Shown: one piece after another, positions 1 to 30,549 of the stretch | Layout of the letters: the number at the start of each line of letters is the position of its first letter | Position numbering within the stretch: the first letter of the stretch is position 1 | NCBI GenBank assembly: GCA_028532905.1 | Contig: JAQQAM010000217.1 | Span: 1 to 32,172, forward strand | Reading direction: 5' to 3' | Length of the DNA stretch: 32,172 bases | Origin: Spirochaetales bacterium | GTDB lineage: Bacteria > Spirochaetota > Spirochaetia > DSM-2461 | The notes under the pieces: model-generated | Seen by the model: the letters and a program-made list of their open reading frames with translations, nothing else | Told to the model about the DNA's origin: nothing | Databases searched by the model: none | Made by a program: the position numbers and the translations under genes

Positions 1-775
1 TGATGAGAATACCCAGAATCAGACAGAAGACAAAGGGGGGAATATGCAGACCGGCTCCTTTACCCATGTCTCCCAGCCAGCTGCCGGCACTCGCCGTAAG
101 GGCCACAAGAAAGAGACTGGAAAGGAGTGAATTATAGTCAATTGATTTTTCCTCCCGGAAGCTGTCACCCAGTCCGACGGTCTGAACCTCATCATGACTG
201 CCGGAAAGCCCGTTTTTCCGGATCAGATAAGTACCCACCGGACCTCCTGCCAGTCCCCCCAGAATAAGACCGAAGGTAGCGGCCACAGCCCCGAACACAT
301 GGGAGGCGGGCATGCCGTACTCCTGTTCAAACACTGTGGACCAGGCCATAGCGGTACCATGACCTCCTGTCAGAGAAATGCTGCCTCCAATCAGGCCGGC
401 AACAGGATTGACCCCGAAGGCCAGAGCAATGCCGACTCCCACAAAATTCTGCAGAAAGAGGTACACAGCAGCCAGGAAAAGCAGAAACAGAATACTCCTG
501 CCCCCGGCGATCAGCTTTGAAATACTGGAGGACAGTCCTATGGTTGAAAAGAAACCGAGAAGCAGAAGATTCTTCAGCTCATCATTGAAATCAATGTCTG
601 TATTGAAGATGAGTTCTACCGCAATAAGAAGTACAGAAAAGAGGAGCCCCCCGCTTATGGCTTCGGGAATATGGAATTTATTCAGAAAAGGGATTTTCCG
701 GTTCAGCCAGCCCCCGGCAAAAAGAACCGGAAAAGCCAGAATAATTGTCATACCCGCATCTATAAGCAAAGCCAT
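1..775 (-). CDS. gltS: Sodium/glutamate symporter GltS (partial, C-terminus beyond window)
   Basis: Reading the minus strand from the ATG at 775 gives an open frame that runs off the left edge, so only about 258 N-terminal residues are present. The protein is almost entirely hydrophobic and contains the GltS-family signature GGHGTAMAW, followed by glycine-rich membrane segments. GltS proteins import glutamate with sodium across the inner membrane. The start is supported by a GGGAGG ribosome site just upstream. It lies downstream of the sulfonate operon but is separated from it by a terminator at 861-900, so it is probably transcribed on its own. The family is clear; the substrate could be another acidic amino acid. 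Confidence 0.88.
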   Translation of the reverse strand, partial: MALLIDAGMTIILAFPVLFAGGWLNRKIPFLNKFHIPEAISGGLLFSVLLIAVELIFNTDIDFNDELKNLLLLGFFSTIGLSSSISKLIAGGRSILFLLFLAAVYLFLQNFVGVGIALAFGVNPVAGLIGGSISLTGGHGTAMAWSTVFEQEYGMPASHVFGAVAATFGLILGGLAGGPVGTYLIRKNGLSGSHDEVQTVGLGDSFREEKSIDYNSLLSSLFLVALTASAGSWLGDMGKGAGLHIPPFVFCLILGILI

Positions 776-860: not shown

Positions 861-900
861 AAAAAGGGACTGCCCCATTTCCATGAGACAATCCCTTTCT
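861..900 (-). terminator. Rho-independent terminator of the cysD-to-cysH operon
   Basis: On the minus strand AAGGGATTG and CAGTCCCTT pair (one G-T wobble) around a 16-nt loop and are followed by TTTTTATATTT. It sits just after the stop of the reductase gene and before gltS, so it marks the end of the operon. Confidence 0.75.
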
Positions 901-930: not shown

Positions 931-1638
931 TCAATCTTTCTTATGAAGACCGCACTCCTTGCTTTCGGGGTTTTCCCACCACCAGCGGCCGCTGCGGATA
1001 TCTTCGCCCTCTTTGACCGCACGGGTACAGGGGGCGCAGCCTATGGAAGGGAACCCTTTCTTGTGGAGGCTGTGGACGGGCACGGAGTTCTCTTTGATAT
1101 ACTCCTTGCACTGCTCCTCGCTCCAGAAGGCCAGAGGATTGATCTTCACCAGGCCGAAGGCCTCATCCCATTCCACAGGTTCAACAGCGCCGCGGGTGAC
1201 CGACTGATCCCGTCTGAGGCCGCAGATCCAGGCATCCTGAGTGTCCAGAGCCCTCTTCAAGGGGTCAATTTTCCGAATGCGGCAGCACTCTTTCCTGTTT
1301 TCCAGACTGTAGTAGAAGGAGTTGGGCCCTTTTGTGCCCATCAGCTCCTCCACCGCCCCGCTGTCAGGGAAATAAACCGTAAAAGGCTTCTTCCACCTGA
1401 TCCGGGCTTCCTCCAGAAGATCATAGCTCTCCTGAAACAGACGCCCCGTATCCAGGGTGAAGATTTCACAGTCTGATGAGATTTTCCGGATCATATCGGT
1501 GATGACCATATCCTCCAGTCCGAGACTGGAGGACTGACAGATCCTGTCCGTATTAAATGTATTCAGAGCCCAGGCAATAACCTCCTGAGGCTCCCTGCCG
1601 GCCAGCTCTTTCTGCCAGCCGGGAATTCTGTCTTTCAT
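931..1638 (-). CDS. cysH: Assimilatory adenylyl-sulfate (APS) reductase, CysH family
   Basis: The 235-residue product belongs to the PAPS/APS reductase family, which reduces activated sulfate to sulfite with thioredoxin as donor. It has the paired cysteines C118-C119 (ECCRIRKIDPLKRAL) and C201/C204 (GCAPCTRAV) that hold the [4Fe-4S] cluster of the APS-using subgroup, plus the catalytic C229 in KECGLH near the C-terminus. PAPS-only enzymes lack the cluster cysteines, so APS is the expected substrate. The start lies 1 nt after the stop of the upstream alpha-oxoamine synthase gene, indicating translational coupling. No sulfite reductase is present nearby. With cysteate synthase in the same operon, its sulfite is probably used for cysteate, which is inference. 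Confidence 0.92.
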   Translation of the reverse strand: MKDRIPGWQKELAGREPQEVIAWALNTFNTDRICQSSSLGLEDMVITDMIRKISSDCEIFTLDTGRLFQESYDLLEEARIRWKKPFTVYFPDSGAVEELMGTKGPNSFYYSLENRKECCRIRKIDPLKRALDTQDAWICGLRRDQSVTRGAVEPVEWDEAFGLVKINPLAFWSEEQCKEYIKENSVPVHSLHKKGFPSIGCAPCTRAVKEGEDIRSGRWWWENPESKECGLHKKD

Positions 1639-1639
1639 A

Positions 1640-2923
1640 TTACTTCTTTACGTTTCTGTAGACCTTGGTGATCTTGGCGATATCGTCATCGGTCACAGAG
1701 TCCATCAGGTCCATATCCTTCTTCATATCTCTAAAGGCTTCAATGGTCTGCTGAATTTCCGCATCCGTATGGGACGTGGTGGGGATCATTCTGAACATAC
1801 AGAGTCCGGGAGGAATGACAGGATAGACAACTGCGGTAACAAAAATGTTTTTGGATCGCAGGTATTTAACCATCCGGGCACCCACGCCGTTTACATCATC
1901 ACTTCCGGTGGGAGTGAAAACAGAACAGATGGGAGATTCACCGGGGCCGATGTAGTATCCCAGCTCCTTGAGTCCCTCTTTCAGTTTGTTGGAGTTTTCC
2001 CACATTTTCTTTCTGCGGTCTTCTCCTTCGATGATCAGATCCAGAGTCTTGTCCAGGGCTTTGACATAGACCATGGGGAGGCTCTTGGCAAATACCTGGG
2101 TTCGGGCATTAAAGGCGATCCAGTCGATAACATCCTGATCGGCAGCTACAAATCCACCGATAGAGGCAAAAGACTTGGCAAATGTACCGAAGTAGAGGTC
2201 AATCTTGTCCTGAACACCCAGATAATCTCCGGCACCCCGGCCCTGCTCTCCCACAACACCCACACCATGGGCATCGTCGATAAACAGACGGGCATTGTAT
2301 TTGTCTTTCAGCTCACAGATTCCGGGCAGATCCGCCAGGTCTCCGGTCATACCGTATACACCTTCGATCAGGATGATGACTCCCCCTTCTCTTTTGGCAT
2401 TTACCTGCTGAAGAACATTTTCCAGATCCTTCATATTGTTGTGCTTGAAATAGCGGATGGTGGAACCGGAAGCCTTGGCCATACCGGCGGCATCCAGAAT
2501 ACAGGCGTGAGCCAGTCTGTCTACAATAACCGTATCTTTGGGGCCGCAGAGGGAGGAGATGATTCCCAGTACACCCATATAGCCGAAGTTGAACAGGTAG
2601 GCCGCTTCCTTCTGAGACCAGGCAGCCAGCTTCTTTTCCAGATCCTGGTGGAACTGGGTGTTACCGCTCATCATTCTGGAACCCATGGGGGCGGACGTTC
2701 CGTACTCAGCCAGAGCTTCGGCAGCAACAGCCTTGATCTCTTCGTTTTCAGCCAGACCGATGTAGTTGTTCACTGACCACATGACAACTTCATTGCCGTT
2801 GTAGGTCATTCTCTTGCCGGGTTTGGGGTCCATGGTGGGTCTTGTCAGATCCCGTTCTCCCATCTTTCTGAACTGACCGAAATAACCGGCATCGGTCTTA
2901 CACTTATCAAAAATATCTTCCAT
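1640..2923 (-). CDS. Alpha-oxoamine synthase, probable cysteate fatty-acyltransferase (sulfonolipid first step)
   Basis: This is a 427-residue PLP enzyme of the alpha-oxoamine synthase family (serine palmitoyltransferase, KBL, BioF), which condenses an amino acid with an acyl thioester and releases CO2. Visible marks are H139 that stacks on PLP, the FIDDAHGVG motif at 214-222 and the PLP lysine K250 in FGTFAKSF. Stretches such as PMGSRMMSGNT and VFAKSLPM, as I remember them, typify the Bacteroidota subgroup that includes cysteate acyltransferases. Its direct neighbours make sulfite and cysteate, so cysteate plus acyl-CoA or acyl-ACP to 3-ketocapnine is the likely reaction (inference). A GAGGAG site precedes the ATG. 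Automatic pipelines would call it glycine C-acetyltransferase or BioF; no threonine-degradation or biotin genes are nearby. Confidence 0.85.
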   Translation of the reverse strand: MEDIFDKCKTDAGYFGQFRKMGERDLTRPTMDPKPGKRMTYNGNEVVMWSVNNYIGLAENEEIKAVAAEALAEYGTSAPMGSRMMSGNTQFHQDLEKKLAAWSQKEAAYLFNFGYMGVLGIISSLCGPKDTVIVDRLAHACILDAAGMAKASGSTIRYFKHNNMKDLENVLQQVNAKREGGVIILIEGVYGMTGDLADLPGICELKDKYNARLFIDDAHGVGVVGEQGRGAGDYLGVQDKIDLYFGTFAKSFASIGGFVAADQDVIDWIAFNARTQVFAKSLPMVYVKALDKTLDLIIEGEDRRKKMWENSNKLKEGLKELGYYIGPGESPICSVFTPTGSDDVNGVGARMVKYLRSKNIFVTAVVYPVIPPGLCMFRMIPTTSHTDAEIQQTIEAFRDMKKDMDLMDSVTDDDIAKITKVYRNVKK

Positions 2924-2981
2924 TGTTTTTGCTCCTCAATATGGACTAGATTCTTTATGTTTCTTTTTTATTCACACCGAA

Positions 2982-2999
2982 AGCCCCTTTCAGGGGGCA
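2982..2999 (-). terminator. Short hairpin between cysteate synthase and acyltransferase genes
   Basis: The minus strand reads GCCCC, a short loop, then GGGGC in the 84-nt gap after the cysteate synthase stop. It lacks a proper T-run, so it is at most a weak attenuator or RNA-processing point rather than an operon end. Confidence 0.35.
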
Positions 3000-3007
3000 T
3001 CGGGATA

Positions 3008-4300
3008 TTAAAACAGTTTACCAACCTGTTCAATCACATCCGCCGCATCGGCATCTGCAGAAAAAACAAGATCCGCTTTGGAGGGACCGGTGGTGTGCTC
3101 TTTCTTAAAGAGCTCCATGCCCCCTCCTGTAATGTTCAGCATAATCGCTGCATCGGTCTCCACACGGCCGGCTTTGACAGCCTTCACCAGAGAGGCTACA
3201 GCCACAGCTGCCGCCGGAGAAATATCAATTCCCTCTTTCTCAAGGAACAGGGCACCTGCTGATGCGGCTTCCTCATTGTCGGCAAGGATCACATCTCCCC
3301 CGGTTGCCTTCAGGGCGTCATATAAACCGCCGGGCAGGGAATAAGGGGGCTTTCTGTTGGAAAGAACCTTGGCATTGATAATATGAGCCTGCTCGCGGGC
3401 GGCGTCATCATCCAGTTCCACCAGGGGCCGGCTGTCGGCCTTCCAGCTGTCATAGATTATCTGAAAAGGTTCGTTCTGGGATACCATGAGCTTCATGGTA
3501 TTGGCCCCGTAGCTGCCGTCTGCCTCCAGCCGTAAAGCCGCTTCCCAGGCGGCGATGGCTCCCGTACCGCTTCCCACAGCCTGGAAGTAGTAATCCGGCA
3601 GGCGGCCCATTTCTGTGGCCGCAGAGAGAACAGTGGTTCCCATACCGTCCCGGCGGGCCGGATTTTTGGCGCCCCCCTCGGGATAAAACTGCTCACCCGA
3701 ACAGACCTTGTTGGACAGAGCAATGGCATCAAAATAATCGGACCCCGATGCGGAGGCCACAATTTTGACACAGTCCGCCCGGCCCTCATCAGACCACAGG
3801 GCATTCAGATTGTCTTCGGGAACCACAACCACCAGAGGAATATTATTCTCAGAGCAGACCCGGATAAAGGCCCGGGCTGTATTTCCGGCGGAAGCCACAA
3901 CCAGAACCTTGCCTGTATGATCAGGAATACGGGCACAGACTGAATAGGCTTCGCACTCTTTGAAGGTTCCCGTCTTCATGGCCGCACCCTTTGCAGGCCA
4001 CCAACCGTTGAAGGTGATCCACAGGTTCTCCAGACCCAGCTCTGCAGCCAGGGCTTCACTTTTATAGGTAACAGGAGAGGCGGAGCCCTTCAGCTCCCGC
4101 TGTATGGGCAACCAGTCTGAAAAACGGTAGAGTCCTTCTTCCAAGGGACCGGCCTCCAGCTTGACCGCTGCATAATCGGCCCTCAGAAAATGAGGTTCAC
4201 TGCAGTCGGGACAGGAGAGAAGAGTCCCTGTGTCCTCAAGGGTTTTTCCGCAGCACATGGCTTTCAGTTTGTAATGACTTCCGTCCTTTTTACCACTCAT
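3008..4300 (-). CDS. Cysteate synthase (threonine-synthase-like PLP enzyme)
   Basis: The 430-residue product is a fold-type II PLP enzyme that looks like threonine synthase but matches archaeal cysteate synthase in many long-range features as I remember that family. These are RFSDWLP at 59-65, the PLP lysine K114 in [20 protein letters not shown] at 137-145, a [14 protein letters not shown] block, [24 protein letters not shown]-like SQNEPF and the late LNITGGG. Cysteate synthase joins O-phosphoserine and sulfite to give L-cysteate. The N-terminus carries C16/C17 and C30/C33, possibly a small zinc site. Its start overlaps the cysN stop (ATGA) with GGGAG upstream. The neighbouring sulfite-producing enzymes support cysteate over threonine as product. 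Confidence 0.85.
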
Positions 4301-6111
4301 TTAATGTCTCCCATCAGTTCCCAGTCTTCCATGATTTTATTTACCTGCTCCATATGCTCCACCACCGCTTCGGGCCGTTTCACATGCCAGTCGGGAACGA
4401 TATCTGTGGTGATCTCTTTACCCACCCAGACTGTCTTGAGCCGGGAGGAACCGATCAGAAGCTGTATCAGATCTCTCTCTTCATAGGTGAGTTTGTCAAT
4501 TTTGACAATAAAGAACATACCCGCATCCATCATAATATGGGATATTTCGGAAATACGCCTGATATGTTCCTCTCTGATCACCTGGGTTCTTCTGAACTGG
4601 CGGCCGTCCCTGAGGTCAGAGTCTAAACCGAATTGCAGACTTCGATAACCCAAATAGTAAACATTCTTTTTCAGGTCAAAGAGTTTTTTCTCAAGGTGCT
4701 CTGCAAATTCCTTTTTACCGCCTCCCAGCTCACCTGTTACCAGGATCAGAGCCGGTCTCTGCTGATTCTGCTGCATCCGGTCCAGCTCGGTGACAATACC
4801 GTTTTCCCACTCCAGCTGCCGTTTGACAAGCTTTTCACCATACTCGGATTGTCTGTGGTCATCCACATCACGGATAATACCGCCGCCGGCAATCTCATAC
4901 TCGTCCACAAGAACAAAACGGCTGGTCTGGGGCAGATCCATAACAAGGTCAAAAGCAATAGCCTTCTGGAGAGTAAACACACAGTCCGCCACCTCATGGC
5001 GCTCCACCTGCTGCTTCTTGTTCTGGGAATCCAGTGAGGAGGCATCAATGACCTGTACAATTTCCGACAGCTGGCAGCGGACCTTGGAGGTACCGGTTTT
5101 AAGATAGTACTCCTTCCCGATCACCAGAGGCTCCCGTCCCAGCCAGAAAAGGCTGACCTTCAGACAGTTCCCCACCTTGGGAGGCATTTCGTCACTCCGG
5201 CAGGCCAGAGCCCCCCGGGTCAGATAAATCTGCTCTTCCATGGTAAAGCCGGTGGCCATACCTGCATAGGCTTCTGTTTTCTCTGGAGTATTAAAGCTCT
5301 CAATGGTTTTAACCCGGCTCTTCTTTCCTGAAGGATAGAAGATAATCTCATCCCCTTTCTTAAAGGAACCGGTCTCCACTGTTCCGGCAATGATCCGGCG
5401 GCTGTCGCCGTAGTTGGTAAACTTGTAGATATCGGTAACAGGCATTCTCAAAGGAAGTTTTTCCAGAGTTTCAGCCTTTTTAAAGTTATCCAGAATATCC
5501 AGTACCGTGGGTCCCTTCCACCAGTTCATTCTGTCCTGACGGTGGTAGACCATGTCTCCCTCCCGGCCGCTGACAGGAACAAACTCCACATCGTGCAGAT
5601 TGATGGACCGGAGAAAGCGTGTAAACTTCCGGACGATCTTGTTGTAGACCTGCTGATTGTAATCCACCAGGTCCATTTTGTTCACAACAACACAGACCTG
5701 CCGGATGCCCAGCATGGACAGAAGGTAGCCGTGACGCCGTGAGTTCTCCTGAATTCCCTCCTCTGCATCAATACAGAGAAAGGCGCATTCCGCCCGGGCC
5801 GCACCGGTAATCATATTCTTCAGAAACTCGATATGACCGGGAGCGTCAATAATAATATAATCCCGCTTCTCCGATTTGAAAAACACACGGGCCGCATCAA
5901 TGGTAATTCCCTGGGACTGTTCATCCTTCAGGGCATCCAGTAAAAAGGCGTACTCAAAGGGTTTTGAGTTCCGCTCACAGTCCTTGCGGATCTGCTCCAG
6001 CTTTCCATCGGGAAGACTGCCTGTATCCGCCAGAAGACGTCCTACAACGGTGGATTTTCCATGATCCACATGACCGGTAAAAACTATATTCATCTGTTCG
6101 CGCTGCTGCAT
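4297..6111 (-). CDS. cysN: Sulfate adenylyltransferase large subunit CysN with degenerate APS-kinase tail
   Basis: The 604-residue protein starts with an EF-Tu-like GTPase: GHVDHGKST at 13-21, DAPGH at 89-93 and NKMD at 144-147, followed by two beta-barrel domains to about 430. With CysD it couples GTP hydrolysis to formation of APS from sulfate and ATP. Residues from about 450 to 604 align with the APS kinase of CysNC fusions ([11 protein letters not shown] matches the kinase helix), but the P-loop reads GELGGGKK at 460-467, with Lys where Ser/Thr is needed. The usual DGDN motif is replaced around 487-491. The kinase half is therefore probably dead. The start overlaps the cysD stop by one base. 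Confidence 0.93.
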
Positions 6112-6992
6112 TACATGTACCCGTCCCGTCTTAAGGTTTCCAGACCGCCGCCGTCATCCTTGTCCTGGGCACGCCCGGACCTCTCGGCAATATTGGCAAA
6201 CTTACCGGTCTGCAGTTCTTCAATGATTTCACGCACATTATGAGCGTCTGACTGTACCGCAGTTGTACAGGGACCGCAGCCCAGCGACCTGTATCTCTCG
6301 CCGCTGCCCTGGTTGTAATAAAGGCTAACTGTGGGGATTTTCTCCCGCTCGATATACTCCCAGATATTGGTCTCCGTCCAGTCCAGAAGGGGATGAATCC
6401 GCACATGGGACCCCGGAGCGAAATCGGTCTTGAACTGATTCCAGAACTCAGGGGGCTGATCCCCCACATCCCAGATATTCTCCTTGTCCCGGGGGCTGAA
6501 GTAACGCTCCTTGGAACGGGAACCCTCTTCATCCGCACGGACCCCTACGATGACACCGGTGTACATTTCCGTATCCGTGTCCACCTCGTACTGATCTGTC
6601 TTGTGGTTGAAGCGGTAGCGGGTCCAGCTGCCGTTCAGAGTGTTTTTCAACGCTTCCGCCTTCAGCAGCCGGCAGCAGGTAAGCCGGTCAACATTCCCGT
6701 CGGGGAAGGTCTGTTTTGCATTGATCGCATCAACATTCTGACCGTACACCATGGGGAGATTCCACTCCCGGGTCAGCTTGTCCCGGTACTCGATCATCTC
6801 AGGTATTTTGTAACTCGTATCGATGTGTACCAGGGGAAAGGGAACATGACCGTAAAATGCTTTACGGGCCAGCCAAAGAAGAACCGTACTGTCTTTGCCG
6901 ATTGACCAGAGCATGCACAGGTTCTTGAAATTCGAGTAGGCTTCCCGGAGTATCCGGACGCCAATTGCTTCTAATTCGTCTAGTTGGTCCAT
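6111..6992 (-). CDS. cysD: Sulfate adenylyltransferase small subunit CysD
   Basis: CysD is the ATP-pyrophosphatase subunit that adenylates sulfate to APS in complex with CysN. The sequence shows the family P-loop [18 protein letters not shown], the PFPLVHIDT strand and the C-terminal run [18 protein letters not shown] with an arginine-rich tail. I chose the ATG at 6992, because the protein then begins [11 protein letters not shown] like other CysD proteins. An in-frame TTG at 7001 with AGGGA about 9 nt upstream is the alternative. It is the first gene of the operon, and a TTGACA element lies at 7022-7027. The length (about 293 residues) is normal. Confidence 0.93.
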
Positions 6993-6997
6993 GGCAT

Positions 6998-7027
6998 ACA
7001 ATAGATAGCATCCCTAGGGAGTGTCAA
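6998..7027 (-). promoter_or_regulatory. Candidate promoter for the cysD operon
   Basis: The minus strand has a perfect TTGACA (7027-7022), an 18-nt spacer and TATTGT (7003-6998, 4 of 6 matches to TATAAT). If used, the transcript would begin within a few bases of the ATG at 6992, giving an almost leaderless mRNA. The element position is seen; its use is inference. Confidence 0.45.
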
Positions 7028-7253: not shown

Positions 7254-7283
7254 TTAACAAATAATGAAAAACAGGTGTATAAT
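7254..7283 (+). promoter_or_regulatory. Candidate promoter for the lipoprotein gene
   Basis: TTAACA (7254-7259), an 18-nt spacer and a perfect TATAAT (7278-7283) form a near-consensus sigma-70-type promoter. Transcription would start near 7290, so translation from the ATG at 7264 would be impossible and the ATG at 7291 would be leaderless or nearly so. Confidence 0.5.
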
Positions 7284-7290
7284 ATTCGGT

Positions 7291-8550
7291 ATGAAAACCC
7301 TTCTGTACACGTCGGTTATTCTTATTATCCCACTCCTTCTCAGCTCCTGTTTTTTATACGAGGAGCACGTTTACGACAATCCTTATGATCCTGACTCCAC
7401 AGATGGGATCACTCTGGAATACAGGACCATGCAGATAGACGGAGATACCTCCGACTGGGATGATGTGCCGGTAATCCGTACAGATAACACAGGTGAGTTA
7501 GCAAGTAGTGGAGACGACCTGATAGCAGGAAGTGATCTTTACGAAATAAAGATGGTTCAGGATGTAGAGAATATCTATTTTTATTATTCAACAATTGATG
7601 GAGCTCCTCTTTCTACAACAGGAATTGAATTACATAATAGTTTCTCGGGCGATGAATACAATATTCAATTTAATATTTCCCATAGTTGGGAAGGGGATAT
7701 CCAAAACCAAATTTCATCAGGAGTTTACGGGGTTTGGGGTAATTTTGATTACTGGGGAGACGAGCCGGATGTAGCAGAAGGAAATATTCCGGATCCAGCT
7801 ATCCGTTTTGCTGGTATAGATCCCAATAGCAACAGTATGGAGTATGCAATATCAAAACGACACTATTGGGATTATGCATATGACAATGAATTACGATTTA
7901 ATACTGGTACATGGTTAAAATACTATGAGTATTTGTATACGGATGGTGGCGGCGACAATCTGGATGAAACTAGTGAACTCATAATACGTGTAAAAGACAG
8001 CAGTGCGCAGGAGCCGAGTTTTGATCTACCTTTATTACAGTTTAAAGCTCCCTCATCAGCACTTAATATCGATGGAAGTAATAGTGATCTATCTATCTGG
8101 ACGGAAACAGGCGCATGGTTCCGAGACTTTTCTACAGATGATCTTGAACTTTCAGAATCCAACACCAATATTGAAAGTATCTATATAAAACAGGACTCAG
8201 CCAATATTTACATTTTGTTATTATTGGCAGATGCGGCAACATTTAATGCCTCTGGTTTTCCAGTTCAATATATATTTAATGTGGAACAGGATGGAGGTAC
8301 ACATTATCACCAATTAGTCGCAAGCCATGATGGTGCTACAACATGGACTTTTGGTGTTGATTATGAATTTCAGGGAGTTGATGGAACAGGATGTAATGTG
8401 CAAGAGTCTGATGGCTATGTTGAAATGACATTTGCAAAATCAGGTCCATGGGGAGCAATCCCTGATGGAAATTACAGCTTCAATCTGGAAGTTTATGACT
8501 CTGTATCAGATCGTGTGGATTCGGCAAGTTTTCTTGGTTATTATAACTGA
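7291..8550 (+). CDS. Predicted lipoprotein with two carbohydrate-binding-like repeats, function unknown
   Basis: The product (419 residues from the ATG at 7291; 428 if the in-frame ATG at 7264 is used) starts with a lysine, a hydrophobic run and the lipobox LLSSC, so it is probably a lipoprotein anchored at its cysteine. Two stretches have the look of beta-sandwich modules similar to family-9 carbohydrate-binding or DOMON-like domains: one beginning IDGDTSDWDDVP and a second beginning NIDGSNSDLSIW about 200 residues later. No catalytic motif was found. The 5' end has GC-rich codon use and the rest is distinctly AT-rich, which may mark recombination or transfer. It stands alone, convergent with the ATPase gene. 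Function is not recognised. Confidence 0.75.
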   Translation: MKTLLYTSVILIIPLLLSSCFLYEEHVYDNPYDPDSTDGITLEYRTMQIDGDTSDWDDVPVIRTDNTGELASSGDDLIAGSDLYEIKMVQDVENIYFYYSTIDGAPLSTTGIELHNSFSGDEYNIQFNISHSWEGDIQNQISSGVYGVWGNFDYWGDEPDVAEGNIPDPAIRFAGIDPNSNSMEYAISKRHYWDYAYDNELRFNTGTWLKYYEYLYTDGGGDNLDETSELIIRVKDSSAQEPSFDLPLLQFKAPSSALNIDGSNSDLSIWTETGAWFRDFSTDDLELSESNTNIESIYIKQDSANIYILLLLADAATFNASGFPVQYIFNVEQDGGTHYHQLVASHDGATTWTFGVDYEFQGVDGTGCNVQESDGYVEMTFAKSGPWGAIPDGNYSFNLEVYDSVSDRVDSASFLGYYN

Positions 8551-27069: not shown

Positions 27070-28854
27070 TCAGTCCACTGAGGTAACATAAACATAGTAG
27101 GCTCCACGAACGAACTTCCGACTCTCTTCATCAGAAAGTCTTTTATATTGATAAGAATCATCACTTTCTGTGTAAAACCAGGTCTGAACAACAGTTTCAC
27201 CCGCCGGGAGGTCCAGAATAAATGAGGCAGCCAGGTCATCTGATGAAACAGAGACAGTCTGATCATAGGAGCCGATTCTGATTCTAGCAGTACTGACCGG
27301 CAGAGAATGTCCTCCGGTGTAATATTTCCACTCTTTTTTATCTATGGCATCCCTGCGAAACTCCACATCATCTCCGTCAATTCCAGAGCGGATTCTGATG
27401 GATGACTCACGAGGCCAACGGTAAAGGTCAAACCGGTACAGACCTTTAAACAGAACATCAATTTCCCAATAGCCGTTTGAAATCAGTCCTTCACGGATAT
27501 GATTCTGCTGGTAAGGAGCATGACTCTCTTCATTGCGCCAATCATGACAGCACAGTTTGACAGGGGTATCTTTCAGGATATCAATGGGGATTGTCTCTCC
27601 GAACCGTGTGGAAACAAGCGCCCACCACTCTTCATAAGCCTGACGGTGAGTTTCAACTATATCCGGATACTCATCAGAAAGATCATTCCTCTGTTCCGTA
27701 TCCCTCTGTATATCGTAAAGTTCCCTGCCGTTTATCAGTCTCCATCTTCGGGACATCACCGAGGAGAGCCTCCACTTTTCAGGATGAGTAATCCGCTGTG
27801 AGTCGGTTACAAGGAATCGTTCACTGAACCCTGATCCGTCCCCCCTGATGACCGGTTTCAGACTGGAGCCATGAAAGCCCCTGCCCACCGGTATATCAAT
27901 GCCGCACAAATCAAGTAATGTAGGCATAAAATCAACAGCAGAGGCAAGAACATCTTCATCCCGTCCCTTATCAATCACCCCTGCTGGCCAGTTCATAAAG
28001 AACGGGACTCTGTGTCCTCCCTCATATTCAGAACACTTTCTGCCTCTCATTCCTGCATTAAATCCCTCAGAAACAAACTGATTTTCATCTAAAGTACAAC
28101 CGCAGCTGCTTCCATTATCTGTCATGAAGATAAGAATGGTATTGTCTGTCAAATCCAGTTCATCCAGTTTCCTGCGGAGGAAACCGAAGTTTTCATCAAT
28201 ATTGCTTATCATCCCATAGAATCTGGCCCGATCCTCGGGAACAGAATATCTATAAGGATCAGCATACCGGTTATCAACGTTATATGGTTCATGGGGAGCA
28301 TTCACTGTAATACAGCATAAAAAGGGATTATCCTTAACCTTCTTAATATGCCTGAGAGCTTCTCCGAACCAGACATCTGTGCAGTATCCTTCAAATTTTC
28401 TGGGAATACCGTCCTCCAGGTAGGTATCATCAAAATAGTCATTCCCCCACCAGTCTGAAACCTGGCTGATTCCACCGCCCCCGTGCATTACCACTTTATT
28501 AAAACCCCGATCCTGAGGCCGATAGGGATAATTATCTCCCAGATGCCATTTACCGAAAAGAGAGGTATCGTAACCTGCCTCTCTGAATGCAGATGCCAGA
28601 CTCCACTCATTCCTTCTGAGAAGAGACCGCCCTCCGATGGTATGCCATACTCCAGTACTGTTGGCATGATGCCCTGTCATAAGCATGGAGCGGGAGGGAG
28701 CACAGGTGGGTCCCACATGAAAGTTTGTGAATCTGAGAGATTCTCGATAAAAAGCATCAATCTCGGGTGTCTGAATAACAGGGTTCCCATGACAGCCCAG
28801 GTCTCCATACCCCTGATCATCCGTCAGGACCAATATGACATTCGGTTTATTCAT
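27070..28854 (-). CDS. Sulfatase (formylglycine-dependent, Cys type)
   Basis: The 594-residue protein is an alkaline-phosphatase-fold sulfatase (S1 type) that removes sulfate esters. The N-terminus MNKPNVILVLTDDQG supplies metal-binding aspartates, C51 in CAPSRSMLMTG is the residue converted to formylglycine, GKWHLGD and FMTDNGSSCG carry further active-site residues. About 150 extra C-terminal residues form a beta-rich appendage. No signal peptide is seen, so it should act in the cytoplasm on imported sugars, unless its export is unusual. It is divergent from the second sulfatase with a 135-nt gap. A cysteine-type site in an anaerobe requires a radical-SAM maturase, which is not in the window. 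Confidence 0.93.
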   Translation of the reverse strand: MNKPNVILVLTDDQGYGDLGCHGNPVIQTPEIDAFYRESLRFTNFHVGPTCAPSRSMLMTGHHANSTGVWHTIGGRSLLRRNEWSLASAFREAGYDTSLFGKWHLGDNYPYRPQDRGFNKVVMHGGGGISQVSDWWGNDYFDDTYLEDGIPRKFEGYCTDVWFGEALRHIKKVKDNPFLCCITVNAPHEPYNVDNRYADPYRYSVPEDRARFYGMISNIDENFGFLRRKLDELDLTDNTILIFMTDNGSSCGCTLDENQFVSEGFNAGMRGRKCSEYEGGHRVPFFMNWPAGVIDKGRDEDVLASAVDFMPTLLDLCGIDIPVGRGFHGSSLKPVIRGDGSGFSERFLVTDSQRITHPEKWRLSSVMSRRWRLINGRELYDIQRDTEQRNDLSDEYPDIVETHRQAYEEWWALVSTRFGETIPIDILKDTPVKLCCHDWRNEESHAPYQQNHIREGLISNGYWEIDVLFKGLYRFDLYRWPRESSIRIRSGIDGDDVEFRRDAIDKKEWKYYTGGHSLPVSTARIRIGSYDQTVSVSSDDLAASFILDLPAGETVVQTWFYTESDDSYQYKRLSDEESRKFVRGAYYVYVTSVD

Positions 28855-28889: not shown

Positions 28890-28916
28890 AGAAATTACAA
28901 CACTTCCTTTGCATAT

Positions 28917-28986
28917 ATTAATTTCACCCACAACAATATGTAGAACACCCACCATGACTCGAATTTCTCATGATAATTTTTTTGAA
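28917..28986 (+). promoter_or_regulatory. Shared activator-type promoter region, copy A (21-bp periodic boxes)
   Basis: ACCCAC boxes at 28926 and 28947 and a CATGA box (28969) are spaced exactly 21 bp apart and followed by GATAAT (28972-28977) and a T-run. About 50 of 70 bases match copy B at 30549-30618. There is no -35 match, as expected for an activator-dependent promoter. Confidence 0.65.
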
Positions 28987-28989
28987 GTT

Positions 28990-30549
28990 ATGAAAGACAA
29001 AATCAACATTCTGTTTATAACAACAGATCAGCAGCAAAAGAAGACACTGGGAGTTTATGGTAACAAACAGATAAGAACACCCCATCTGGACAATTTGGCA
29101 AATAAGGGAATTGTACTGGACAGAGCTTATTGCGAGAATCCTATATGCATTCCCTCACGGAATACGATGATAACAGGCAGAAAGTCTTTCCATCATGGAG
29201 CCCCCCAGCACAACAGCAGCCTTCCGGACAGCGAAAGCTGTCTGGGAGATGTTTTAAAGCGGGAAGGTTACGACACCCACTTCATTGGCAAACCTCACTT
29301 TAAATCTCAGCAGACCAGAGGTACTGAAGAATCGATAGCAGACTGGCGGGAGGGTCTGTATGATGACTGGAACGGTCCCTATGCCGGATTTGAAACAGTG
29401 GATATTGTACTGGGACACAGCAATCCACTGACCGGTCATTACGGCCAGTGGATGAAGAAGAATCACAGGGATAAAATTGAGTTGTTTTTCGAACAGAATC
29501 TGTCCTCTGCTGATGTGAACTGCGGTCAGGGAGTTTACCGGACTGAGATTCCGGAAGAGGTGCATTCGTCCACCTATGTAGGCAACAGGACAGTGGATTT
29601 TATCAGAAAATCAGCTGAAAGCGGAGAACCTTTCTACTGCTTCAGCAGTTTTCCTGATCCTCACTGGCCTCTGATGACCCCTCCCGCATTCTATGATCTG
29701 TATCGGAATACATCTGTGAAAACAGAATACAATTCCTTTGCCCATGATCCTAACCTGAAAAATTATCCTGAAGTTATGAAAGAATACCTTGTAAGCGGAG
29801 TCTTTCCGGACTATGACGGGGGCGGACACAGGGTTAAGGATGAAAAGGACATTGAAATTATTACCAGAGCCTACTGGGGATCGGTCTCTCTAATAGATAA
29901 AAATGTGGGGCGTATTCTTAAAACTCTTGAGGAAACAGGATTACAGGAGAATACCCTTGTCGTTTTTACTACAGATCATGGAGAGTATATGGGAGCCCAT
30001 GGTATGATGGCCAAGGGCGGTGTCTGCTGGGAGGAGTATATCAATGTTCCGTTCATTGCCTCTTTGCCGGGGAGTATTCCTATGGGAGTCAGGAGCAGCA
30101 GTCTCTTCTCTTTCACTGATATCGTACCGACTTTACTTGAGATTACAGGAATAAAGGCTTCAGACGGGTTACCTCCCCTGCCCTGTGATGGTGTATCACA
30201 GAAGGACCTGCTAACCGGGGACAAAGACAGAATTCGAAAATCACTGACTGTTCATCATGCCAGAGCCAATATGCGCACTCACGTACCGGATCAGCATGTC
30301 CTTATCTGTGATGACGGCTGGAAACTTGTGTATTATGCCGGAGATCAGGGAGGTCAGCTATATAATCTGAATAAAGATCCGGGAGAAACAAAAAATCTCT
30401 ATAATCTCAGTGAATATTCTGTTGTGCAGAAATCAATGGAAAAAGAGCTGTTAGACCGTTTGATCCTGGAGAGTGACCTTGATCCGGTGATCCAGAGAAT
30501 GACAGCTGATCCGACCTGGGGAGCTCATGTTCTTAAGGGGTGGGACTGA
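28990..30549 (+). CDS. Sulfatase (formylglycine-dependent, Cys type)
   Basis: The 519-residue product is a second S1-type sulfatase. It starts MKDKINILFITTDQQQ with metal-binding aspartate, has C53 in CIPSRNTMITGR as the residue turned into formylglycine, then GKPHFK and VVFTTDHGEYMGAHGMMAKG with further active-site residues. I start at 28990 because the frame upstream to 28909 lies inside the shared promoter region and does not look like protein; no strong ribosome site is visible. No signal peptide, so cytoplasmic action on imported sugar sulfates is expected. The sequence differs greatly from the neighbouring sulfatase, suggesting a different sulfate position or sugar. It precedes an importer gene with the same promoter type. 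Confidence 0.92.
   Translation: MKDKINILFITTDQQQKKTLGVYGNKQIRTPHLDNLANKGIVLDRAYCENPICIPSRNTMITGRKSFHHGAPQHNSSLPDSESCLGDVLKREGYDTHFIGKPHFKSQQTRGTEESIADWREGLYDDWNGPYAGFETVDIVLGHSNPLTGHYGQWMKKNHRDKIELFFEQNLSSADVNCGQGVYRTEIPEEVHSSTYVGNRTVDFIRKSAESGEPFYCFSSFPDPHWPLMTPPAFYDLYRNTSVKTEYNSFAHDPNLKNYPEVMKEYLVSGVFPDYDGGGHRVKDEKDIEIITRAYWGSVSLIDKNVGRILKTLEETGLQENTLVVFTTDHGEYMGAHGMMAKGGVCWEEYINVPFIASLPGSIPMGVRSSSLFSFTDIVPTLLEITGIKASDGLPPLPCDGVSQKDLLTGDKDRIRKSLTVHHARANMRTHVPDQHVLICDDGWKLVYYAGDQGGQLYNLNKDPGETKNLYNLSEYSVVQKSMEKELLDRLILESDLDPVIQRMTADPTWGAHVLKGWD

Follow-up and report, generated by a model that had tools for sequence, protein, structure and literature searches.

Sulfonolipids influence gliding, the development of choanoflagellates and host immunity; within the bacteria they are regarded as a trait of the Bacteroidota. 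The closest described system to the locus reported here is the capnine pathway of that phylum (capABC), which consists of cysteate synthase (CS), a cysteate fatty-acyltransferase (CFAT, or SulA) and a 3-ketocapnine reductase. We analysed a five-gene operon at positions 7001–931 (minus strand) of a 32,172-nucleotide stretch of DNA, hereafter the window, from Spirochaetales bacterium (assembly GCA_028532905.1, contig JAQQAM010000217.1). This window makes up all of contig C217 in a draft genome, G000, of 4.98 Mb and 95% completeness. To judge from its genes, the operon very probably encodes a dedicated route from sulfate to a sulfonolipid base of the Bacteroidota capnine type, in a member of the Spirochaetota. 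Pathways of this kind are known; the new elements are the phylum, the architecture of the operon, its apparent commitment of sulfate reduction to a sulfonate and a partner protein of the VOC family.

Homologues of Cys, cfat and kcr have been listed in 13 phyla at an E-value cut-off of 1e-20, in a text that does not name Spirochaetota (PMC11211663). By our scores that cut-off would also admit enzymes resembling KBL and serine palmitoyltransferase (SPT), and we therefore do not regard the list as a prior report of this operon.

Results

The third gene of the operon (3008–4300) encodes a predicted CS, which would make cysteate from phosphoserine and sulfite. The protein scores 475.9 bits against TIGR03844 (cysteate_syn), for which the NCBI equivalog cut-off is 324.9, and its best match in the PDB is cysteate synthase 9k3c (E = 3.7e-157), with threonine synthases reaching only 6e-12. 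The fourth gene (1640–2923) encodes an alpha-oxoamine synthase, a putative CFAT (CFAT/SulA/CapB-like), which falls below the profile cut-offs for KBL, BioF, SPT and ALAS. Its best PDB matches are CFAT 28eh (E = 1e-104) and SulA 7u7h (4e-95), followed by SPT (3e-69) and KBL. In a tree of 38 proteins (support given as UFBoot/SH-aLRT), the window protein grouped at 100/99 with its spirochaete orthologues, 28eh, 7u7h, two Bacteroidota plasmid proteins and a Legionella lytica protein, and SPT, KBL and the spirochaete paralogues formed the opposite clade (100/99); neither the exact root nor the placement of the long Legionella branch is certain.

Lys281 of SulA, an alanine in SPT, is the sole clear difference between the two active sites; its replacement (K281A) lowers activity about 1000-fold, and SulA uses neither serine nor phosphoserine (PMC9304779). 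The corresponding residue of the window protein, Lys280, and the pyridoxal phosphate (PLP) lysine, K250, are invariant across the CFAT clade, and the SPT- and KBL-like sequences outside it carry Ala, Asn or Cys at the Lys281 position. A first-pass annotation, made from the window sequence without database searches, had read the PLP enzyme of the third gene as a cysteate synthase and the product of the fourth as an alpha-oxoamine synthase of the cysteate-acyltransferase type; grouping with true threonine synthases, or with KBL or BioF, would have refuted it. Both assignments held, the comparison with BioF being by profile score only. The spirochaete CFATs form two well-supported groups, each only ~40% identical to the Bacteroidota proteins, which makes a recent transfer from Bacteroidota unlikely. 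On the L. lytica plasmid NZ_CP071528.1 (L107:7986–12857), the CFAT-like gene, with its SulA lysine, adjoins genes for phosphosulfolactate synthase and phosphosulfolactate phosphatase, suggesting a sulfonolipid route that would draw on a different sulfonate source.

The remaining genes of the operon concern sulfate. cysD (6111–7001) encodes the small subunit of sulfate adenylyltransferase (NF003587, 337.7 bits against a cut-off of 195), with orthologues at 77–92% in syntenic loci. CysN (4297–6111), the ATP sulfurylase GTPase, scores 341.7 bits against TIGR02034 (cut-off 336.1) and has an intact GTPase motif, GHVDHGKS. It also carries a degenerate domain resembling adenylylsulfate (APS) kinase at about residues 431–565, in which the Lys-Ser/Thr pair of the P-loop GxxGxGK[ST], the DGDN aspartate site and FISP have all been lost, in the window and in 10 orthologues (11 of 11). 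This domain is a correction to the first-pass annotation, which named CysN only. cysH (931–1638) encodes a predicted Fe-S type APS reductase, which would yield sulfite (TIGR02055, 250.7 bits against a cut-off of 235.3); the cysteine pairs for the [4Fe-4S] cluster are present (CC118 and C201xxC), as is ECG228 within an ECGLH tail. The degenerate APS-kinase domain of CysN is compatible with an APS reductase, an enzyme that does not require 3′-phosphoadenylylsulfate (PAPS).

A genome-wide search for sulfite/nitrite reductases (PF01077), positive in 11 of 14 control genomes, gave no match in this genome, which is 95% complete. At that completeness the result is good, if not absolute, evidence against reduction of sulfite to sulfide for cysteine, and it strengthens the claim that the operon does not serve general cysteine assimilation. 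With the degenerate kinase domain, the missing reductase family suggests that APS and sulfite are reserved for cysteate. No cysH was found beside CFAT in G006, G011 and L015. In the reduced 1.4 Mb spirochaete genome G264 (L076), CS, CFAT and the VOC gene stand together, and cysDN and cysH are not beside them.

CS, CFAT and the VOC protein were surveyed in the same 393 Spirochaetota genomes, CS being counted above its cut-off (or as a split gene, in G080) and CFAT at 450 bits or more (the next best score was 282). CS and CFAT occur in an identical set of 10 genomes, spanning four families and more than one class (hypergeometric 5e-20; this and the Fisher value below treat genomes as independent, ignoring shared ancestry). 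They still co-occur in families f29 and f47, where the two genes lie far apart. A VOC profile, for which loci of genomes bearing CFAT or CS supplied the sequences, matches 9 of the 10, the exception, G073, being 60% complete; in the rest of the 393 it finds only debris, in G005, a genome that also contains CFAT debris. Four of the nine copies (G035, G047, G066 and G087) are divergent, at ~28% identity, and lie at the syntenic position that the closer copies hold in G080 and G058. The VOC protein was also sought on plasmids, and none was found.

The window's own family gives a similar picture. Among its 26 genomes, 14 have both CFAT and VOC, eight have neither and G005 has debris of both (Fisher p 3e-4). 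The three discordant genomes, all 71–80% complete, have VOC only (G010 and G407) or CFAT only (G415), and in G010 the contig ends directly after the cysteate synthase gene. In G001, G004, G011, G006, G013, L015, G264, G417 and G414 the VOC gene adjoins CFAT or lies close to it. In G003, of the window's genus, operon and VOC gene are both cleanly missing between intact flanking genes. Contig C72 of G005 (L067:5136–9653) is a sulfonolipid locus apparently caught in loss, with decayed CFAT and VOC fragments either side of an intact E1-FabH gene. Joint loss, joint decay and joint presence while unlinked thus recur, and the case for co-inheritance does not depend on treating genomes as independent. 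On these grounds the VOC protein is a candidate for a pathway component not previously described.

The VOC protein has a double glyoxalase fold, with four glyoxalase-type modules per chain (PF00903, 48 bits, over the cut-off), and its weak profile matches include methylmalonyl-CoA epimerase. No solved structure reaches 30 bits, and an AlphaFold model from a two-sequence alignment gave no usable fold (predicted local distance difference test, 36.6). Four positions are conserved across 14 proteins: 10 (Gln or His), 71 (Glu), 257 (His or Glu) and 308 (Glu). These residues probably act as metal ligands; we take their pattern to match the metal sites of glyoxalase I and methylmalonyl-CoA epimerase and not those of O2-using dioxygenases. 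We can only guess at its reaction, perhaps the isomerisation or epimerisation of a keto intermediate such as 3-ketocapnine.

The operon itself is compact. Its five open reading frames are all intact, cysD and cysN overlap by 1 base and cysN and CS by 4, and CFAT and cysH are 1 base apart. The sole sizeable gap, 84 bases between CS and CFAT, contains a small stem-loop (2983–2998, minus strand), read from the sequence, which could tune expression. A hairpin with a T-run resembling an intrinsic terminator follows cysH at about 862–898 (minus strand), found by eye as its loop, of more than 8, exceeds the scanner limit. The five packed genes of the first-pass annotation are confirmed. Its term 'complete' applies to the head group as far as the 3-keto intermediate; the later steps, ketoreductase and N-acyltransferase, have no assigned genes. 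Gene order is kept in G001 (of the window's genus), G002, G004, G006, G011 and L015, the last being Dive96_bin4.94 ('Spirochaetes bacterium'). Such conservation in independent genomes, of the window's genus and family among others, makes chance and mis-binning untenable, and we rejected contamination of the metagenome-assembled genome; the spirochaete host proposed at first is upheld.

The next gene downstream (1–775, minus strand) encodes the N-terminal part of a GltS-type sodium/glutamate symporter (PF03616, 236 bits), cut by the contig end. The truncated frame resumes in-frame at the end of contig C209, with a 6-base overlap, which makes C209 the most likely neighbour at the window's left end. 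That contig bears the VOC gene (L102:8075–9130), which was thus out of sight of the first-pass annotation, and an E1-FabH fusion, as in G001 and G004. The fusion, of ~1,110–1,190 residues, comprises 2-oxoacid dehydrogenase E1 alpha and beta, a lipoyl domain and FabH (KAS III); it is found at L102:9262–12609 and at L014:10253–13831, and could make branched fatty-acid primers directly. We rejected it as a pathway-specific part, as it is also present in G003, G005, G017 and G019, all of which lack an intact CFAT.

Candidates for the ketoreductase are seen in other lineages. In G011, G006 and G417 the operon is immediately preceded by a short-chain reductase (SDR) gene, and a ketopantoate-reductase-like (ApbA/PanE) gene adjoins CFAT in six f29/f47 loci (L153, L155, L157, L158, L159 and L161); either protein could be the 3-ketocapnine reductase of its own lineage. 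Four of these six loci also have a distant GltS-type symporter near CFAT, and the window operon likewise precedes a GltS gene. G000 has neither an SDR nor a ketopantoate-reductase-like gene linked to the operon. An SDR on its contig C36 was considered as a dedicated 3-ketocapnine reductase and found unsupported, at 40% identity to the operon-linked SDR and with a similar SDR in the CFAT-less G003. The reductases are unlinked in Bacteroidota as well (PMC11211663). Of the loci read, just that of G417 has a PlsC-type acyltransferase gene placed between those for CFAT and VOC.

Elsewhere in the window, a lipoprotein-like gene (7264–8550, plus strand) with no Pfam match diverges from cysD, and similar-looking lipoproteins occupy the equivalent position in G004 and G002. 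Two sulfatase-like genes (27070–28854, minus strand; 28909–30549, plus strand) lie near sugar ABC transporter and GH65-like genes and, judged by eye, might release sulfate from sulfated polysaccharides.

Discussion

We infer the catalytic steps, the lipid product and the role of the VOC protein from the families, residues and gene neighbourhoods described above. CysDN would convert sulfate to APS. The pseudo-kinase domain of CysN would be unable to make PAPS, and the Fe-S APS reductase would turn APS directly into sulfite. Cysteate synthase would then combine sulfite with phosphoserine to give cysteate, and CFAT would condense cysteate with an acyl thioester (on acyl carrier protein or CoA, probably partly iso-branched) to 3-ketocapnine, which an unlinked reductase would reduce to capnine. 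Capnine would probably be N-acylated and placed in the membrane. The double-VOC metalloprotein from the nearby gene on C209 may act in the same pathway. The reading of the first-pass annotation, from sulfate through cysteate to an acylated 3-keto sulfonate, finds support in CS and CFAT family membership, the SulA lysine, synteny and co-occurrence.

The cysteate could instead serve another sulfonate, such as coenzyme M, sulfolactate, an excreted osmolyte or a small natural product, with the CFAT-like enzyme making an acyl sulfonate that is not a membrane lipid. TIGR03844 takes its origin from the archaeal enzyme that serves coenzyme M synthesis, the f29/f47 genomes have CS and CFAT at separate places, and the operon adjoins a gene for a GltS-type carrier of an acidic amino acid. 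Yet the phyletic profiles of CS and CFAT are identical, CFAT has the SulA signature and falls in the CFAT clade, and we saw no gene of coenzyme M synthesis adjoining the operon, although the rest of the genome was not searched for one; we consider this role of the operon improbable. Synthesis of a sphingolipid-like base by an SPT taking serine in place of cysteate is less likely still in our estimation: after the CFATs, SPT is the closest family with a known structure, but Lys280 stands where SPT has alanine, SulA accepts neither serine nor phosphoserine (PMC9304779), CS and APS reductase share the operon, and the tree places CFAT apart from SPT.

Slimmest of all are the prospects of ordinary assimilatory sulfate reduction for cysteine, with generic KBL/SPT-like and threonine-synthase-like enzymes alongside by chance. 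cysD, cysN and cysH are indeed the classical assimilation genes, but the genome lacks a PF01077 sulfite reductase, CS exceeds its equivalog cut-off, CFAT lies outside KBL and SPT, and gene order is kept across several genera, so that this explanation is already largely refuted.

Several points nevertheless tell against a capnine-type sulfonolipid pathway in this organism. CFAT identity to the Bacteroidota enzymes is modest, the co-occurrence statistics assume independent genomes, and the best SDR of G000 is no closer to the operon-linked SDR than that noted above, its like being present in a genome without CFAT. No gene was identified as the N-acyltransferase. We found no report of a spirochaete sulfonolipid, capnine or cysteate synthase pathway in the open-licence literature. 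In Oceanispirochaeta, whose fatty acids include iso-C13:0 and iso-C15:0, the major polar lipids are cardiolipins and glycolipids, with no mention of capnine (PMC11129491); those strains may or may not carry the operon.

Beyond the pathway itself, we lean, by a narrow measure, towards an old sulfonolipid pathway of the Spirochaetota that combines sulfate reduction dedicated to a lipid sulfonate, and not to cysteine, with an undescribed, obligatory VOC enzyme, for example one epimerising C2 of 3-ketocapnine or processing a keto intermediate without O2. If the pathway operates as proposed, sulfonolipids from an anoxic habitat would no longer point to Bacteroidota alone. Its presence in environmental spirochaetes raises the question whether the outer membrane of these organisms contains the lipids, the VOC protein offers a concrete candidate for an unrecognised step, and a dedicated route from sulfate to sulfonate without sulfite reductase would be an unusual use of assimilatory genes.

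The locus thus shares with the Bacteroidota capnine pathway homologous CS and CFAT, the diagnostic lysine and the same proposed order of steps. It differs in its phylum, in the ~40% identity of CFAT, in uniting these genes with sulfate activation and APS reduction in one operon, in the lack of a linked reductase in G000 and in a VOC protein inherited with CFAT. Like the assimilatory operons (cysDN, cysH), it encodes CysD, CysN and an Fe-S APS reductase that belong to the usual families; unlike them, it stands in a genome where no sulfite reductase was found, its CysN has a degenerate APS-kinase domain, and its sulfite would feed cysteate. CFAT has the alpha-oxoamine synthase fold and PLP residues of the bacterial SPT of sphingolipid base synthesis, but a lysine for alanine at the position of SulA Lys281, and it belongs to a separate clade. 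The VOC protein resembles methylmalonyl-CoA epimerase and glyoxalase I in its fold, as judged by profile, and in Q/H10, E71, H/E257 and E308, which recall their four metal ligands. It departs from both in having four modules in a single chain, in scoring below 30 bits against solved structures, and in being confined, among the 393 genomes searched and apart from the debris in G005, to those that bear CFAT and CS.

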